A DNA stretch of 64,000 nucleotides from Arachnia propionica (GTDB lineage Bacteria > Actinomycetota > Actinomycetes > Propionibacteriales > Propionibacteriaceae). The DNA lies in NCBI RefSeq assembly GCF_003859805.1, contig NZ_RQZG01000001.1, positions 310,001-374,000 on the forward strand, in the 5' to 3' direction. Positions within the stretch are counted from its first letter, which is position 1. Each line of letters starts with the position of its first letter. Below are positions 35,850-43,590 of the stretch, in pieces. The position numbers and the translations under genes are program-made. The notes beneath the pieces were generated by a model. It worked only from the letters and a program-made list of their open reading frames with translations. It had not been told where the DNA came from and did no database searches.

Positions 35850-36788
35850 TCAGTCGATGGTCCGTTCGAGGGTGACCACGCTGTCGGCCTCCTCGTAACC
35901 GAGGGTTCGGGTGAGCCACGCGGCGATCGTACGGTTCGGCACGTCGACGCTGATCCCGCAGGATTCGATGCCTTCCGCCGCCATCACGCGCATCGATCTC
36001 GCGAGCATCGCCTCGGCGACACCGTGGCGTCGCTCGCTCGGTGTCACCCCCAGGCGGTCACACCAGCCCTGCTCCGCATCCCCGTCGATGCCCGGGACAC
36101 GGGCGTTGAGGCAGTAGCCGATCACCTCTCCATTCCTGAGGGCCACGACCGACCAGTGGGCACGGAAGGACTCCGAGGCCAGGGACTCCTCCCAGGTCTG
36201 GCGTGGGAACGGTGCCTCGAAGCACACCCGGTGCAGATCGAGCACGGGATCGCTCAGCTCCGAGGCGAAGGGAACGAACTCAACCCCTGCCGGGGAAACC
36301 GGGACGGGCAGGGGGTGGAGGGGACGGGTCATGTCGATCAGGCACCGGGTGAGCGTGAACCCACGGTGCAGCAGCAGCTGCTCCAGTCCCGGCTGCCCCT
36401 CGACCACGCAGCGCAACCTCAGTTCCTGTCCGGGGTGGGTCGCATCCCGCCAGGCGATGGCGTGTTCCACCTGCCACCGGAGCAGGTTCGCCCCGATGCC
36501 CTGGTGTCGGTGGGTCGGGTGGACCGCACCGAGGAGGTGCACGAGTGGTCCCTCCTCCTCCGGGTCGATGAAGTTCCAGGCGAAGGCTGACAGGCTGCCG
36601 TAGTCATCCCACCCCCCGACCGCCTCCCCGCGGTCGGCATCAGGGGCGAGGGAGTCCAACAGCTCCGAGGTCGTGCTCAGCAGTGGGTCGTCGATGACCG
36701 CGATCTGGGTCTGCAGTCGGGCCACCTCCTCCCAGTCCTGATCGCCCAACGGCCGCCAGGTGAGGTGCGGGTCGACGAAGCTGTCCAT
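35850..36788 (-). CDS. Tandem GNAT-family N-acetyltransferase
   Basis: 312 residues with two GNAT domains. The first has an acetyl-CoA motif AVHPTHRHQGIGANLLRWQVE near residue 110; the second has LGVTPSERRHGVAEAMLARSM near residue 255. The double layout resembles mycothiol synthase (MshD) and related tandem acetyltransferases, but no substrate can be assigned. I chose ATG at 36788 (MDSFVDPHLTW), overlapping the previous stop by one base. It is the last gene of the five-gene priA unit. Confidence 0.82.
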   Translation of the reverse strand: MDSFVDPHLTWRPLGDQDWEEVARLQTQIAVIDDPLLSTTSELLDSLAPDADRGEAVGGWDDYGSLSAFAWNFIDPEEEGPLVHLLGAVHPTHRHQGIGANLLRWQVEHAIAWRDATHPGQELRLRCVVEGQPGLEQLLLHRGFTLTRCLIDMTRPLHPLPVPVSPAGVEFVPFASELSDPVLDLHRVCFEAPFPRQTWEESLASESFRAHWSVVALRNGEVIGYCLNARVPGIDGDAEQGWCDRLGVTPSERRHGVAEAMLARSMRVMAAEGIESCGISVDVPNRTIAAWLTRTLGYEEADSVVTLERTID

Positions 36789-37525
36789 CACCAACGCCAG
36801 ATGCCGGAGTGCCCTGACGGACGCGGGCTGCTCTGCTCCCAGCGACGTCGCCACCTGGCCATGGGTTGGGACTCACCGCGGATCGGCCCACGGTGCTGCA
36901 GGGCCCACCACGACAGGTCCGTCCGGTTGAACAGGGCGGTCACCGCGGTCTGGATCTCAGCGGTGGCCTCCTCCAGCGACTGGCCACGAACGTAGATGGG
37001 GGCACCGAACCGGACCGAGACCTTGGGGCGTCGTTCGAGGGCCAGCCGCAACACCTCCTTGAGATGGTAGGTCCCCACCAGGGCCACCGGCACCACGGGA
37101 ACGTTGTGCAGGTTCGCCAGTTCGGCCGGCACCCCGGAGAACTCCCCCACGCCCCCCTCCGGTCCGGCTGCCTCGGAGAAGATCACCGTGCTGCGACCAC
37201 GGGCGAGGGCACGACTCGGGCGTCTCCAGGTGGCGCGCAACCGTGCGGGCAGGGCGGCTTCGAGCACCCGCCAGTCGAGGACCCCCTGCTCGTTGCACGC
37301 GAGGATCACCGGGGCGTCGAGACCGTCCAGTGCCCCCAGACCCGCCACCTGGTACTCGAGTCGCCAGGCCAGAGGGTTGAGCAGGTTCGGGCCCTCGCCC
37401 ATCTCCCCCTGACCGAGCCGGTGACGTCGTCGCGCAGTCCGCGACGGCGCCCCCACCGGGCGGGTGGAGCGCAGTCCGAAACCGGTTCGGGCGAACCGGG
37501 CCATGTCGGCGAACCAGGTGATCAC
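36788..37525 (-). CDS. Degenerate PlsC-like acyltransferase-fold protein
   Basis: 245 residues resembling the PlsC/LPLAT fold: GLDAPVILACNEQGVLDW, VIFSEAAGPEGGVGEF and VPVVPVALVGTYHLKE line up with family blocks I, III and IV. The catalytic block I, normally NHxxxxD, reads NEQGVLD near residues 78-84, so the histidine is glutamate. Block III, normally FPEGTRS, reads FSEAAGP. Acyl transfer by the usual mechanism is therefore unlikely. I chose the GTG at 37525, which forms a GTGA overlap with the LarA-like gene and has AGGGGAG at good distance. Confidence 0.72.
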   Translation of the reverse strand: MITWFADMARFARTGFGLRSTRPVGAPSRTARRRHRLGQGEMGEGPNLLNPLAWRLEYQVAGLGALDGLDAPVILACNEQGVLDWRVLEAALPARLRATWRRPSRALARGRSTVIFSEAAGPEGGVGEFSGVPAELANLHNVPVVPVALVGTYHLKEVLRLALERRPKVSVRFGAPIYVRGQSLEEATAEIQTAVTALFNRTDLSWWALQHRGPIRGESQPMARWRRRWEQSSPRPSGHSGIWRW

Positions 37526-39036
37526 TGGCACTCCCCTGTCGCACGTCCCGGACCGTGCAGGTAGGTGATCGACCCGGCACCACCCAGCTCACCCGCCAAC
37601 TCGAGACCGTCGGCCAGGGTGGAGGCCGCCCGGTGTCCGAGCACCGCTGCTGATTCACGGGAACCACCGACCCAGATCACCTCGGACAGCCGGGAGGCGA
37701 CCTCCTGGATCGCGTACCAGGAGTGGAAGACGGCCAGTGGGTGGGGAGCGTGGTGGTCGCGGTACAGCGTGAGGTCCCAGTCCTCGTCGAGCGCCCGGGA
37801 CTCGAAACGCTCGTGGATCTCCCGGCCGTCACGGGTCTGCGGCAGGATCTTGTCGAAGAAGTCGGCACTCGGTGACTGCAGTCGGTTGGAGAAGAGCCTG
37901 CTGAGTGGGTGGAAGGCGATGACGACGCCACCATCCCGCACCAGTGGGGAGGCCCCATGGTTCCCCACCCGATCGACCAGGGCGTGATGAGCGGCGCTGA
38001 TCGGGGATCCGATCGGATCCCCCGGATCGATGCTGCTGCCCCACACCGAGGTGATCACCGTGTCAGCACTCGGGACGAAGACGGCATTGGCCGCCTGCCA
38101 GACCTCCGAGGCCTGGGAGACCACCGCTTCCGGGGACCCCGCGACGACGTCCAGCACCGCGTAGTCGGCCCGCGGTGCTGCGTAGAGCCGGTGGGAGCCC
38201 TGGATCGGCAGGAGCTCCACCAGCTGCCGGGCGGCCGCGAAGGCCAGCTGCTCCGGCAACCGCCACTCCCACTCCCGCTCGTTGAGGAAGTTGAGTGGTT
38301 GCCGCAGGAATGGTTGCCCCAGCACCGCGGAGATCGCGAACACGTTGACGGCGTCCTTGATGGCGCGTGAGACCTCACCCACTGCCGCGGTGGAGCCGGT
38401 GAAACCCGCGATGCGGTTGATCGTGGCGATGTCGGTGGCACCGGTGGCGAGCACGCACCCACCCCGACGACCGTGGCACACGTCCACCACGACCACGAGA
38501 TCGGATTCTGCGATGCGCGGATCCACCAGCACCGACTCCCCGGCCACCCGGGCGATCTCGAGCAGCTCCGGCGAGGTGACGTCGTGACTGTGGATCAGCC
38601 CGTCGGGCAGGAAGGAGGCAGCGACCCGGTCCCCCAGGGCGGCGACCACGTCCTTGGCCGCCCAGCGGGGTGACAGACCCGCCGCGATGACCAGGGCCAC
38701 GTCGTCGACACCGGCGCGGGCCGCCTGTTCGAGCACCCGTTCCACGATGCTGCGCCGGATGTCGAAGCGCATCCGAGGCTGCACCGGATGGACGTTCCCG
38801 ATCACGACGGTGAGTTTCATCCCGGGGCGGAGCTGGGCCGGGAAAGGAATGGCATCGACCGGTGTGGCCAGGGACGCATCGATGAGCGGCACGGGATCAC
38901 TGGAGGGCATGGCGTCCGGCGGGTAGAGCACCCGGGTACCCGTCGGGAAACGTTGCAGCTGCACCCGGCTGCCGGACAGGGTCAGCAGGTCGGGCGTGCG
39001 CTCATCGACCTTGAGGACGAAACCCGGCCGGGTCAT
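37522..39036 (-). CDS. LarA-like DUF2088 protein
   Basis: 504 residues. The N-terminal half follows the LarA/DUF2088 pattern: KLTVVIGNVHPVQPRMRFDI, VDDVALVIAAGLSPRW near 111-125, SHDVTSPE near 150-157 and VVVVDVCHGRRGGCVLATGATDI near 181-203. LarA enzymes use a nickel-pincer nucleotide. The lysine that carries it (GGxK region) and the histidine of the GTHRP-type motif are not found at the equivalent places here (GLSPRW, GCVLATG). A changed chemistry or a non-enzymatic role is inferred. It overlaps the reductase gene by 4 nt. Confidence 0.72.
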   Translation of the reverse strand: MTRPGFVLKVDERTPDLLTLSGSRVQLQRFPTGTRVLYPPDAMPSSDPVPLIDASLATPVDAIPFPAQLRPGMKLTVVIGNVHPVQPRMRFDIRRSIVERVLEQAARAGVDDVALVIAAGLSPRWAAKDVVAALGDRVAASFLPDGLIHSHDVTSPELLEIARVAGESVLVDPRIAESDLVVVVDVCHGRRGGCVLATGATDIATINRIAGFTGSTAAVGEVSRAIKDAVNVFAISAVLGQPFLRQPLNFLNEREWEWRLPEQLAFAAARQLVELLPIQGSHRLYAAPRADYAVLDVVAGSPEAVVSQASEVWQAANAVFVPSADTVITSVWGSSIDPGDPIGSPISAAHHALVDRVGNHGASPLVRDGGVVIAFHPLSRLFSNRLQSPSADFFDKILPQTRDGREIHERFESRALDEDWDLTLYRDHHAPHPLAVFHSWYAIQEVASRLSEVIWVGGSRESAAVLGHRAASTLADGLELAGELGGAGSITYLHGPGRATGECQ

Positions 39037-41384
39037 GACGGCAACTTCCAGCGCGGCTGCACCGAGTGCGACGGCCAGTCGATGATCGACCAGCCTGAGG
39101 CGCGCGCGGCACGCATCAACCCGATGTCGGGACTCACCGCCACCGGATTGCCGACGCTACGGAGCATCGGGAGGTCGACGTGGCTGTCGGCATAGGCGAA
39201 GGAGGCACCCAGGTCGATGCCGTGGAGACCGGCGTAGTGGGTGAGCCAGGCCGCCCTGGAATCCCCCACCATCGGTGGTCCGGTGAGGAAACCGGTGCAC
39301 ACCCCGGCCGCGTCGGTGGCCAGATCCGCGGCGACGATGTGGTCGAACAGCCCCACGAACGGGCGGGTCAGCGGTCGGATCACCCCGGTGATGAGGATGG
39401 TGGTGTGCCCGGCCTCCTTGTGCTCCCGGATCCGCCGGACCGCCTCCGGGGAGGTCCGGTCGAGCACGAAGGGGGTGAGTCTCTCGTCGACGAAACGTTC
39501 CAGTTCCGCCAGGTTCGCACCTTCGTAGCGTCGGTAGACCTGGCGGAGGAACACCCCTCGATCCTTGCGTTCCGCTCCGAGGTAGTTCGGCAGCTGGGCC
39601 AGCACCCGGCAGAGCTCCCCCAGCCGCCCCGGCAGACCGAGTTCGGGCAGCCGCAACCACAGGTAGGTCTCGATGACGTTGGTGGTCATCACCGTGCCGT
39701 CGAGGTCGAAAGCGGCGAGCACCGTTCCCGGTCTGGCAGGCTTGAGGTCCTTGTAGGTCGCGGAACGCGCCCTACGACGTTTGCGTGCCGCATCCAGTCG
39801 ACGCACCGGATCCGTGATGGCCGGGGCGTGGACCTCCTCCAGGTAGTACGTCCAGTCGACATCGGCGGAGTCGAACCCGAAACGCTCCCGGTCCTCCTCG
39901 TGGAGTGAGTTGTGCAGTGCCAGCGTGCAGTCGTCGACGAAGTGGAGCTCGGACTGCAGGTACTCGCCGTAGAGGCTGAGGTACTTGTTGAGGAAGTCGA
40001 GCTGTTTCGCCGTCCTGTCGAGGGCACGTGCCGCGGCGAGGGTGCGGCGCCCCCGCGGGGCGAAACTCAGCATGCGGTTGCCGATGTTCACCCCGAGACC
40101 GGCGAGCCACAGCTTGCGTTCCACCGGTTCCGGGCCGGGGAAGTCCCAGGTGGCGAGTTTCGAGGAGTCCTGTCCCTCGGTGTAGGGGTGCTTGGAGAAG
40201 TAGGAGCGGATGTGCTCGTAGATGCCCCGGAAGGTCAAGGGATTCCGGGCACCGGAGGAGCAGTGGTAGTACTCGGGACGCCCCACCTCCGGTGTGGTGG
40301 CGCACACCGCGACGATGGTGTTGACCACGTAGTCGCAGGGGATGATGTCGATCACCGCGTCGGGCGAAGCGGGGAATTCCGGCAGCTGGCCGCGTCCGTA
40401 GGCGAGGATGATCGGGTCGGCCATCTTGAATCCCTCGATCCAGCCCGGATGGGGATGCCTCAAGGAGGACTCGACGATGGCGGGACGCACCACGGAGACC
40501 CTCATGTCGCGGCAGAGATCCGCCACGACTGCCTCCCCCATGGCCTTGGCGAAGGTGTAGACATCGGTCCACCCGAGGGAACGGGCCCGTTCGGTCCCCG
40601 CAGCCACGAGTTCCTGCTTCACCCATTCGACACGACGGCGTTCGGTGTCCTCGCTCGTGGTCAGGTACCCGGCCTTGCGGTGCAGTTTCTCCGCCTCCTT
40701 CCTGAGCAGCGTGAGCTGCTCCGAGGTGCGGGAGCGGGCCTCCACCATGGCCGCCATGGTCAGGGCCGCCTCCGCCTCACGGGCGTAGTCGACGTCGTGG
40801 GGGTGGGCCGCCTCCGGGATCGGTCCGCGACGACGTCCGGCGGTGTAGGCCGTGGAGATGTGGACGTAGTGCGGCACCCGCTCCAGGTTGCCCTCCTTGT
40901 CGGAGCAGGACTCGCGGAACCTGGCCAGGAGGGCCTCGGTGCCCAGCACGTTCGTCTTGAAGGCCGCGTCGATCGGGGGGTCGAAGGACACGTCGCCGGC
41001 GCAGTGGACCAGCACGTCGATGTCACGGGGCAACACCGGGACCTCAGGCAGGTCACCCTCGATCACCTCGACCCGGGCCGCCATGAGCTCCTCGACCGAT
41101 CCGGCGGCCGCGACGACCTGGGTGAAGATGGGCTTCTTCAGCAGGGATCGCACCCGGTCCTCGGCGCTGAGCGAGCCCTTGCGTCTGACCAGGACGGCGG
41201 TACGGGAGTCAGGGCACTCGGTGAGGAACGTCCACAACAGCTGCTCCCCGATGAAGCCCGTGACCCCTGTCATCGCGATCTTCCTGCCGGCCAGGAGGTC
41301 CTTGATCCGGCCGGTCAGCAATGGCGGGGTGTGGAGTCGTGTGGACTCGGAGGCACCGAAACTGGTGCGGGGGGCCGGGGTCAT
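39033..41384 (-). CDS. Fatty-acyl-CoA reductase-type SDR fused to HAD-IB hydrolase
   Basis: 783 residues in three parts. First comes an extended SDR/NAD_binding_4 domain with dinucleotide motif TGVTGFIG near 39-46 and active-site YTFAK near 276-280. Next is a FAR_C-like region (about 430-530, with [15 protein letters not shown] and DWTYYLEEV). Last is a HAD-IB phosphatase domain with nucleophile motif FDLDGTV near 559-565 and [11 protein letters not shown] near the end. The reductase part should reduce an acyl-CoA or acyl thioester; the HAD part should dephosphorylate an unknown ester. The ATG overlaps the priA stop (ATGA). Confidence 0.83.
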
Positions 41385-42127
41385 CGCATGGTCCTCTCGG
41401 GCTGGGGGCCGGCCACCTCGATGGCCTCGGCGAGGGTGAAACGTCCAAGGTACAGGGCAGTGCCGATGATCGCCCCCTCGACGCCGTCCGCGACCATGCC
41501 ACGCAGCACCCGCAGATCCTCCAACGTCGAGATCCCACCGGAGGCGATCATCGCCGCATCGGTGCGAGCACACATGTCGGCCAACAGATCGAGGTTCGGG
41601 CCGGTCAGCATCCCGTCGGAGTTGACGTCGGTGACCACGAAACGCGGGCAGCCGGCGGTGGCGAGACGTTCCAGGGTCTCGGCCCAGGGACCGCCCTCGG
41701 TGGTCCAACCCCGGGCTGCGAGGTGCTCGCCACGCACGTCGAGGCCGATGGCGATCCGGTCCCCGTGCTCCGCGATCACGCGCTCACACCATGCCGGGTC
41801 CTCCAGCGCAGCCGTCCCGATGTTCACACGTCGGCACCCGGTCTCGAGCGCCCGGGTGAGTGACTCGTCGTCACGGATCCCACCGGAGAGCTCGACGTCG
41901 ATGTCGAGCCTGCCGATGATCTCGGCCAGCAACGGTGCGTTCGAGCCGCGACCGAAGGCGGCGTCGAGATCCACGAGGTGGATCCAGGATGATCCGCCCT
42001 CCTGCCAGCGCAGGGCCGCGGTCAGCGGATCCCCGAACTCCTTCTGGGTGCCCGCCACACCCTGCACCAACTGAACGGCCTGGCCGTCCTGGACGTCAAC
42101 GGCGGGCAGCAACTGCAATGTGTCCAC
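41381..42127 (-). CDS. priA: Phosphoribosyl isomerase PriA (HisA/TrpF bifunctional)
   Basis: A 248-residue beta-alpha barrel of the HisA family: [18 protein letters not shown] at the N terminus, [48 protein letters not shown] and [11 protein letters not shown]. In actinobacteria this enzyme usually acts in both histidine and tryptophan synthesis. No trpF is seen beside the trp genes here, consistent with that dual role. The GTG start at 42127 is chosen with TAGGGT eight bases upstream; a TTG three codons later is possible. It heads the unusual lipid-type gene chain. Confidence 0.92.
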
Positions 42128-42732: not shown

Positions 42733-42807
42733 GGAAACCTCTCGGATGTGGGATCGGGCAGCTGGAAGTGTGACACGGATCAGGGTCGCACGTGGAAGGA
42801 TGGTCCC

Positions 42808-43590
42808 ATGACCGAACACCCGGATCAGGTCCCAGCCCCTCTCCTCGAGCACGCCGCAGCGGCCCGCAGGGTGCTCGTGCTGACCGGGGCGGGGATGTCG
42901 GCGGAGTCCGGGGTGCCCACCTTCCGGGACGAGTCCGCAGGGCTGTGGCACAGCCACTCCCCGGAGGTGATGGCCACGGAGGAGGGATGGCGTGCCGATC
43001 CGGCACTGGTGTGGGCGTGGTACCTGTGGCGGATCGGGATCGTGGCCTCGACCCAACCCAATGCGGGGCACCTCGCCCTGGGCGGGTGGCAACGCTCCGG
43101 CACCCTGGAACGGCTGGACATCGTCACGCAGAACATCGACGACCTCCACGAACGGGGTGGGGCCGAGGTACTGGCCCACCTGCACGGTCGGCTCGACCGC
43201 TTCCACTGCATCGACTGCGGGCTGCCCGGGGACCCCGATCTCACCGCGGCCTCGGGAGCACCCGTACTGCGCTGTCCCCCTTCGCCCTGTTCCGGCTGCG
43301 GAGGCGATCTGCGACCCGGCATCGTCTTCTTCAACGAGATGCTCGACCCCACCGACGTCGACAACGCGGTGGCCGCCACCCAGCAGGCCGATCTCACCCT
43401 GGTGGTGGGCACCTCGTCGGTGGTGTACCCGGCAGCCGCTCTCCCGGGACTCGCACGGCGCAGCGGTTCCTTCGTCGTGGAGATCAATCCCCACCCCACG
43501 GGCATGGACTGCGACCTCCAGTGGCCGACGACCGCGGCCCTCGGACTTCCCGCCCTGGTCGAGGCGCTCGGGCTCCGGGCTCAGGCCTGA
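42808..43590 (+). CDS. Sirtuin-type NAD-dependent protein deacylase
   Basis: 260 residues. NAD-binding motifs are TGAGMSAESGVPTFRD near 26-41 and TQNIDDLH near 107-114; the catalytic histidine is in HLHG near 124-127. Zinc cysteines occur as C134xxC137 and C161xxC164. A Tyr-x-x-Arg pair (Y72, R75 in WYLWR) matches the class III sirtuin pattern that binds succinyl or malonyl groups, so desuccinylase activity is likely. GGAAGGA lies upstream of the ATG. It is the only plus-strand gene in this stretch, and its end overlaps hisH by 10 nt. Confidence 0.92.
   Translation: MTEHPDQVPAPLLEHAAAARRVLVLTGAGMSAESGVPTFRDESAGLWHSHSPEVMATEEGWRADPALVWAWYLWRIGIVASTQPNAGHLALGGWQRSGTLERLDIVTQNIDDLHERGGAEVLAHLHGRLDRFHCIDCGLPGDPDLTAASGAPVLRCPPSPCSGCGGDLRPGIVFFNEMLDPTDVDNAVAATQQADLTLVVGTSSVVYPAAALPGLARRSGSFVVEINPHPTGMDCDLQWPTTAALGLPALVEALGLRAQA

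Follow-up and report, generated by a model that had tools for sequence, protein, structure and literature searches.

Described relatives of the locus

Members of the LarA superfamily are racemases and epimerases of 2-hydroxyacids that depend on the nickel-pincer nucleotide (NPN) cofactor. The solved structures closest to the LarA-fold protein described below are those of LarASp (9q2u and 9q3k) and LarABw (9q3j), and PMC12393405 gives His115, Lys195 and His211 (also printed as His221) for LarASp. In PMC7583248, LarA groups 12, 13 and 16 are set aside with the remark that their NPN residues are not conserved and that they may not be LarA homologues at all, and no activity is reported for the LarAH14 protein of a Frankia sp. 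that was assayed. Further LarA activities are covered in PMC11770544.

Two other described families contribute to the locus, namely the fatty acyl reductases and the PlsC or 1-acyl-sn-glycerol-3-phosphate acyltransferases (PF01553). Fatty acyl reductases are used in wax ester synthesis, and the initial annotation names the mycobacterial PlsC Rv2483c as a case in which HAD-IB and PlsC are fused. Within the literature searched, most of it openly readable and supplements aside, a block of fatty-acyl reductase/HAD fusion, dehydrogenase, LarA and PlsC genes is nowhere described; the initial annotation, which did not recognize its gene set as a characterized one, is borne out in that no description of that set was found either.

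The gene chain in Arachnia propionica

The window, meaning the whole 64,000-nucleotide stretch of A. propionica DNA that was analyzed, contains a chain of five genes on the minus strand at 35850-42127. They follow one another with successive overlaps of 4, 4, 4 and 1 nt, so that the chain and the junction overlaps of 1-4 nt reported for it at first reading are real and were reproduced. The genes and the positions that matter for their interpretation are as follows.

41381..42127, minus strand: priA, which opens the chain and encodes a bifunctional HisA/TrpF isomerase (TIGR01919, 352.5 bits, cut-off 306)
39033..41384, minus strand: FAR-HAD, a fusion of fatty-acyl reductase and HAD-IB phosphatase (PF07993, PF12710, 7eoz)
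37522..39036, minus strand: LarA-fold protein without an NPN site, a putative pseudoenzyme
38671..38673, minus strand: codon for Ser122 of the LarA-fold protein, aligned with the catalytic His (H108)
38455..38457, minus strand: codon for Cys194 of the same protein, aligned with the NPN-anchoring Lys (K184 in LarA, K200 in the Kribbella protein)
38407..38409, minus strand: codon for Ala210 of the same protein, aligned with the nickel-ligand His (H200)
36788..37525, minus strand: PlsC-fold protein without catalytic motifs, a putative pseudoenzyme
37274..37294, minus strand: degenerate form of NHxxxxD at N78-D84 of the PlsC-like protein, with the His replaced by Glu79
35850..36788, minus strand: tandem GNAT acetyltransferase (PF00583, 57.9 bits, two stretches)

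Between 34900 and 43700 there are no sigma-70-like promoters and no terminator-like sites, against shuffle means of 0.3 and 2.1, respectively, and Rfam at gathering thresholds has no match across the window. An identification of the GNAT protein as mycothiol synthase was dropped, as TIGR03448 scores 26 bits against a cut-off of 163. On the opposite strand there is a SIR2-family deacylase gene (42793-43590, plus strand), with hisH (assigned by eye) on one side and the pyroglutamyl-peptidase and priA genes on the other. By position only, this deacylase and the GNAT protein downstream could be an acylation/deacylation pair.

The ancestral four-gene block

The block has the order FAR-HAD, MDR, LarA and PlsC, with MDR a zinc-type dehydrogenase, in Kribbella, Actinopolymorpha and some Nocardioides. 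Among 147 order-level genomes, 128 match FAR-HAD at 1e-10, many of them in the HAD part only, and 79 have matches of at least 54% identity across most of the length (our own count). Among the 296 genomes sampled across the class, FAR-HAD is found in 65 (E 1e-60). Twenty of these class-level loci were fetched; 16 carry FAR-HAD, MDR and LarA, and 15 also PlsC (L072 stops at the contig end). The 16 come from families f15, f17, f21, f23, f26 and f43, while in the other four FAR-HAD is a more distant paralogue and neither MDR nor LarA accompanies it. The same synteny is seen in loci of f2, f3 and f4. In addition, 29 of 80 named loci combine MDR, an H-K-H LarA (the three key residues above) and an intact PlsC; these are from Kribbella, Actinopolymorpha, Nocardioides and one unclassified MAG. 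One named locus (L166) has FAR-HAD alone. The named and unnamed loci overlap (e.g., L136 and L112 are identical in FAR-HAD to L029 and L055), so the named-locus counts and the LarA residue counts given below are not independent. Statements on synteny come from tblastn because ORF calling was unreliable in these high-GC loci, where some MDR and PlsC genes were overridden by frames called on the reverse strand. With the same imperfect ORF calling, no other gene family recurs across these families as the four do.

The priA gene was not found in the neighborhood of FAR-HAD in any of the 20 fetched class-level loci or in four f3 loci (L030, L033, L034 and L037), and GNAT is found, at the thresholds of the locus survey, only in Propionibacteriaceae-type loci. 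Both genes are outside the ancestral block: priA is a neighbor in only part of the order, and GNAT was added in the Propionibacteriaceae. The three middle genes of the chain recur together both with and without priA, and are therefore a unit rather than accidental neighbors. The first reading of the locus as one lipid or acyl pathway joined to a histidine gene thus holds as far as the unit of middle genes goes; the attachment to priA is incidental, and the MDR member of the unit is missing here.

That the genes are unrelated neighbors gathered beside priA, in a housekeeping operon without a common pathway, is very improbable. The variable membership of GNAT and priA is what such an operon would show, but the four block genes are found together in several actinobacterial families whose other neighbors at the locus differ, and two lineages have each inactivated or lost LarA and MDR, as described below. 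The four-gene block is widespread and apparently undescribed.

Eight Nocardioidaceae loci (L030, L033, L034, L037, L160, L163, L165 and L167) have an acyl-CoA synthetase-like gene (AMP-binding) near the block, checked against Pfam in three of the eight, and some of them also encode a DUF4331 protein. The synthetase-like gene is a candidate supplier of the acyl substrate.

The FAR-HAD fusion

Residues 39-357 of FAR-HAD match NAD_binding_4, the fatty acyl-CoA reductase domain (PF07993, 155.9 bits, cut-off 20.1), and are followed by a FAR_C-like region at about 457-518 (PF03015, 34.5 bits, slightly below the cut-off of 35.4) and by a HAD-IB phosphatase domain at 557-742 (PF12710, 115.5 bits; TIGR01490, 95.5 bits, slightly below the cut-off of 98.3). 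The fatty acyl-CoA reductase of PDB 7eoz aligns across residues 27-527 (E 9.5e-48) and shares the NAD-binding and YxxxK motifs, but the window protein has the HAD-IB phosphatase as an extra C-terminal domain. The reductase motifs are TGVTGFIGE at 39-47 (GxxGxxG) and YTFAK at 276-280 (YxxxK). The phosphatase motifs are likewise present, as DLDGT at 560-564 (the DxDGT nucleophile motif) and YADSHVDLP at 731-739 (DSxxDLP type).

Among the FAR-HAD, LarA-fold and PlsC-fold proteins of the window, only FAR-HAD has intact motifs, and it still looks active by this measure. The block sequences of other Propionibacteriaceae retain the reductase motifs and the DLDGT of the HAD domain, and a few (L022, L060) differ in the second HAD motif. 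Elsewhere, the nucleophile motif reads DLDGA in genus f21g55 and DLEGT in L083 and L178, both of which have an intact block. FAR-HAD paralogues of about 40% identity (L038-L041 and L084-L087) were omitted from the block counts; they lack MDR and LarA, and a PlsC-like gene lies near L084-L087.

The LarA-fold and PlsC-fold proteins

The LarA-fold protein of the window is modeled by AlphaFold with a confident two-domain LarA fold. Compared to the LarA superfamily, however, the NPN-anchoring Lys, the nickel His and the catalytic His are all missing, with Cys194, Ala210 and Ser122 standing where K184, H200 and H108 align. In addition, 14 residues of the ancestral loop after the nickel-His position are absent, and the NCBIfam model for LarAH14/15/16 (NF052592) gives 301 bits against a cut-off of 740.

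In ancestral-type block sequences, the H108, K184 and H200 equivalents are H, K and H in 36 of 36 rows. The ALHRR of the block LarA aligns with GLHRK of LarASp, and its GGHK is followed 16 residues on by the third His of the HHH set, with the same Lys-His spacing as in LarASp. The block LarA of the ancestor is therefore a predicted NPN enzyme. The anchor Lys is found in none of 22 Propionibacteriaceae rows, the window included (L177 was too partial and was left out of the residue table). Proteins without the NPN residues occupy the place of the NPN-type LarA in the block and align with it end to end. These alignments establish that a LarA-fold gene can be entirely without a recognizable nickel-cofactor site.

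The PlsC-like protein has likewise kept its fold. It reads NEQGVLD where NHxxxxD is expected and FSEA-AG at the place of EGTRS, lacks about 45 aa of the PF01553 acyltransferase core and has no Pfam match; three PF01553 matches occur elsewhere in the genome. The PlsC protein of ancestral-type blocks retains NHxxxxD and EGTRS and is a true PF01553 member. The early suspicion that the PlsC-like protein is degenerate was correct, since both motifs are lost. The accompanying view of the LarA-like and PlsC-like proteins as working pathway steps is not supported, because in the window both have lost their catalytic residues and should not be read in that way.

Two independent losses of the NPN site

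The losses extend across the Propionibacteriaceae. In 50 named loci of Propionibacteriaceae type, some of them cut by contig ends, a LarA of at least 450 aa is encoded in 43; none of the 43 has the Lys or the HHH, and a His at the H108 position survives in two (L090 and L118). Of the 50, 37 have a PlsC-like frame that reaches 200 aa or more, five of them with both motifs (EGxRS allowed). MDR is present in one (L114), and there the Cys of its GICGSD motif is changed to Ser. Both LarA and PlsC are absent from L094 and L105, as well as beside FAR-HAD in L025, L026 and L061, and L128 has LarA without PlsC. LarA and PlsC are thus not always needed. This distribution suggests an order of loss in which LarA function and MDR went first and the PlsC motifs next, until in some loci both the LarA and the PlsC gene were gone.

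A second loss is found in f21g55, a genus of family f21 that retains the block. The anchor Lys of its LarA is lost in 8 of 8 rows, with a His at the H108 position in three and at the H200 position in six. Its MDR has lost the GICGSD Cys and the GHE His and has a disrupted four-Cys lobe in all seven rows shown, and its PlsC rows keep both motifs. LarA is H-K-H in the other f21 loci (10 sequences read). In a careful FAR-HAD tree of 28 rows, the Propionibacteriaceae and the f21g55 proteins that lack the site form separate clades, each supported at 100/100, and a single clade of both is rejected (AU p 1e-69). Two changes suffice in this tree and in a quick tree of 48 rows. On these phylogenies, the predicted NPN site of LarA was lost twice independently. 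Because LarA and MDR were both lost or changed in each lineage, they may share one step, which suggests that the two proteins act together.

NPN synthesis genes across genomes

LarC is a protein of NPN synthesis, and its distribution follows that of the block LarA. In the 296 class-level genomes, block LarA is found in 45, LarC in 75 and both in 35 (Fisher p 5e-16). With the window's genome and f21g55 set aside, LarC is present in 34 of 35 genomes that have a block LarA. Ten genomes have a block LarA but no LarC; one is G288, whose assembly is fragmented and which does encode LarE, and the other nine belong to f21g55. None of these nine yielded LarC or a LarE above cut-off. Among the 43 genomes tested, LarE is above cut-off in 23, including six of six from f3, 14 of 14 from the rest of f21, none of nine from f21g55 and three of 14 from the window's own genus. 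In f3, LarC is present in six of six block genomes compared to seven of 45 others (p 9.5e-5), and in five of these six (G010, G028, G038, G112 and G115) the block LarA is the sole Lar_N match. LarC (PF01969) is also found without a Lar_N match in the same genome (G041, G047, G055, G109 and G140 in f3; G071 and G104 in the window's own family), reflecting either an undetected LarA or another role for LarC. LarC is an imperfect marker of a LarA client.

The most direct genomic tie between NPN synthesis and the block is in genus f23g78. At L083 (8702-13952), the gene immediately upstream of FAR-HAD, in the same orientation, is that of LarE; LarC is encoded on the other strand beyond an unassigned 213-aa frame. 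In the second genome of the genus (G299), LarC shares a contig with LarA at a distance of about 5.5 kb.

In the window's own genus, LarC and an above-cut-off LarE were both not found in 11 of 14 genomes. The window's genome and two of the 13 others carry both, and each of these also has a second Lar_N protein. In the window's genome they are found at L188 (C24:157000-172000), which encodes LarC, LarE, a LarA family protein, a PfkB kinase, a 6-phosphogluconate dehydrogenase, a GH2 glycosidase and a LacI-type regulator. The LarA family protein there is closest to the hexonate-epimerase model (162 bits, cut-off 500), and L188 is probably an NPN-dependent hexonate locus. G077, which belongs to the same genus and lacks both LarC and a LarE above cut-off, has a second Lar_N match in two pieces (C16:198783-199263), probably a decaying canonical LarA.

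Constraint on the retained frames

The LarA-fold and PlsC-fold frames are open in 13 of 13 same-genus loci. Between the window and L088, dN/dS is 0.16 for LarA and 0.17 for PlsC, and the range for both genes in the two closest pairs is 0.16-0.21. In f21g55, the values for LarA and MDR are 0.15 and 0.21 in L171-L176 and 0.22 and 0.35 in L078-L176. This means that close pairs in both lineages have open frames with dN/dS of about 0.15-0.35. Between ancestral and own-genus proteins, dN/dS for LarA reaches 1.06 (L029-L045), and constraint was therefore relaxed at some stage. Moreover, LarA and PlsC change faster than FAR-HAD, as in L042-L045, where identity is 58% for LarA and 80% for FAR-HAD. The substitution patterns demonstrate that the LarA-fold and PlsC-fold frames are still under apparent selection at the protein level.

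Two other accounts of these frames bear on this point. LarA and PlsC could be incipient pseudogenes in slow decay, kept open only through translational coupling to the downstream GNAT gene. The overlapping stop and start codons of the chain, the relaxed constraint relative to FAR-HAD and the absence of both genes from lineages such as L094 and L105 would fit such decay. It is nevertheless improbable given the 13 open loci, the low dN/dS of the two closest pairs, the presence of LarA and PlsC in most loci of the whole family and the retention of LarA and MDR in f21g55. In addition, the stop/start overlap is absent in four of the seven relatives looked at, so coupling is not the general reason for the open frames.

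It is also conceivable, if unlikely, that the LarA-fold and PlsC-fold proteins gained a new, cofactor-free catalysis, in which case the operon would still carry out a lipid pathway of several steps. The confident LarA fold and dN/dS values well below 1 in close pairs would agree with this, as would 28 invariant columns, including E255, W256, W258 and D392, with H376 nearly so, in a 48-row LarA alignment (A5). However, A5 takes in NPN-type relatives, which share the invariant residues, so that these may merely hold the fold, and the faster change of LarA and PlsC compared to FAR-HAD also argues against new catalysis.

A proposed history of the block

The chain is probably a reduced form of the four-gene block, in which an active-looking FAR-HAD is accompanied by retained LarA-fold and PlsC-fold pseudoenzymes. 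Judging by family names, the ancestral reductase would convert a long-chain acyl thioester to an aldehyde or alcohol, the HAD-IB phosphatase and PlsC would dephosphorylate and acylate a phosphorylated glycerol-type acceptor, and the NPN-dependent LarA and the zinc MDR would form one linked redox or isomerization branch acting on a hydroxylated intermediate. The sequences show that the LarA/MDR branch was closed down twice independently: the NPN site of LarA was lost, MDR was either inactivated or lost, and LarC and LarE went as well in f21g55 and in the majority of genomes of the window's genus. The PlsC motifs are gone too in most Propionibacteriaceae, the window included. Most likely, the LarA-fold and PlsC-fold proteins were kept as non-catalytic partners of FAR-HAD, for example as scaffold, lipid-binding or regulatory subunits. 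The position next to priA would be incidental, and GNAT would have joined later. More tentatively, the ancestral block may be an undescribed NPN-dependent lipid pathway with a zinc dehydrogenase, and the LarA-fold protein may have become a structural or regulatory subunit of FAR-HAD after the two cofactor losses.

Given the identities of FAR and PlsC, the block plausibly acts in the synthesis or modification of a lipid. A fatty acyl reductase is common to the block and to the wax ester and triacylglycerol pathways that use WS/DGAT, but a WS/DGAT match is missing from the window's genome and from G163, which has an intact block. A wax ester made via WS/DGAT is therefore an unlikely product for the window. 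WS/DGAT matches occur in 16 of 30 genomes tested and have no fixed relation to the block. An ether-lipid product was also considered; literature searches on this and on dimethyl acetals in Propionibacteriaceae returned nothing usable.

Significance

To our knowledge, the substrates of the single-histidine LarA groups have not been identified. Through the conserved block, which in one lineage has LarE directly upstream, a single-histidine LarA is linked to PlsC, to a dehydrogenase and to the fused fatty-acyl reductase and HAD phosphatase, and the substrate search thereby narrows to lipid intermediates. If this is true, a nickel-pincer enzyme would act in lipid metabolism rather than in hydroxyacid or sugar metabolism, and the block would offer a natural before-and-after series from an organometallic enzyme to a pseudoenzyme. 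For genome annotation, this means that the functions of LarA and PlsC are not transferable by name to the Propionibacteriaceae genes.
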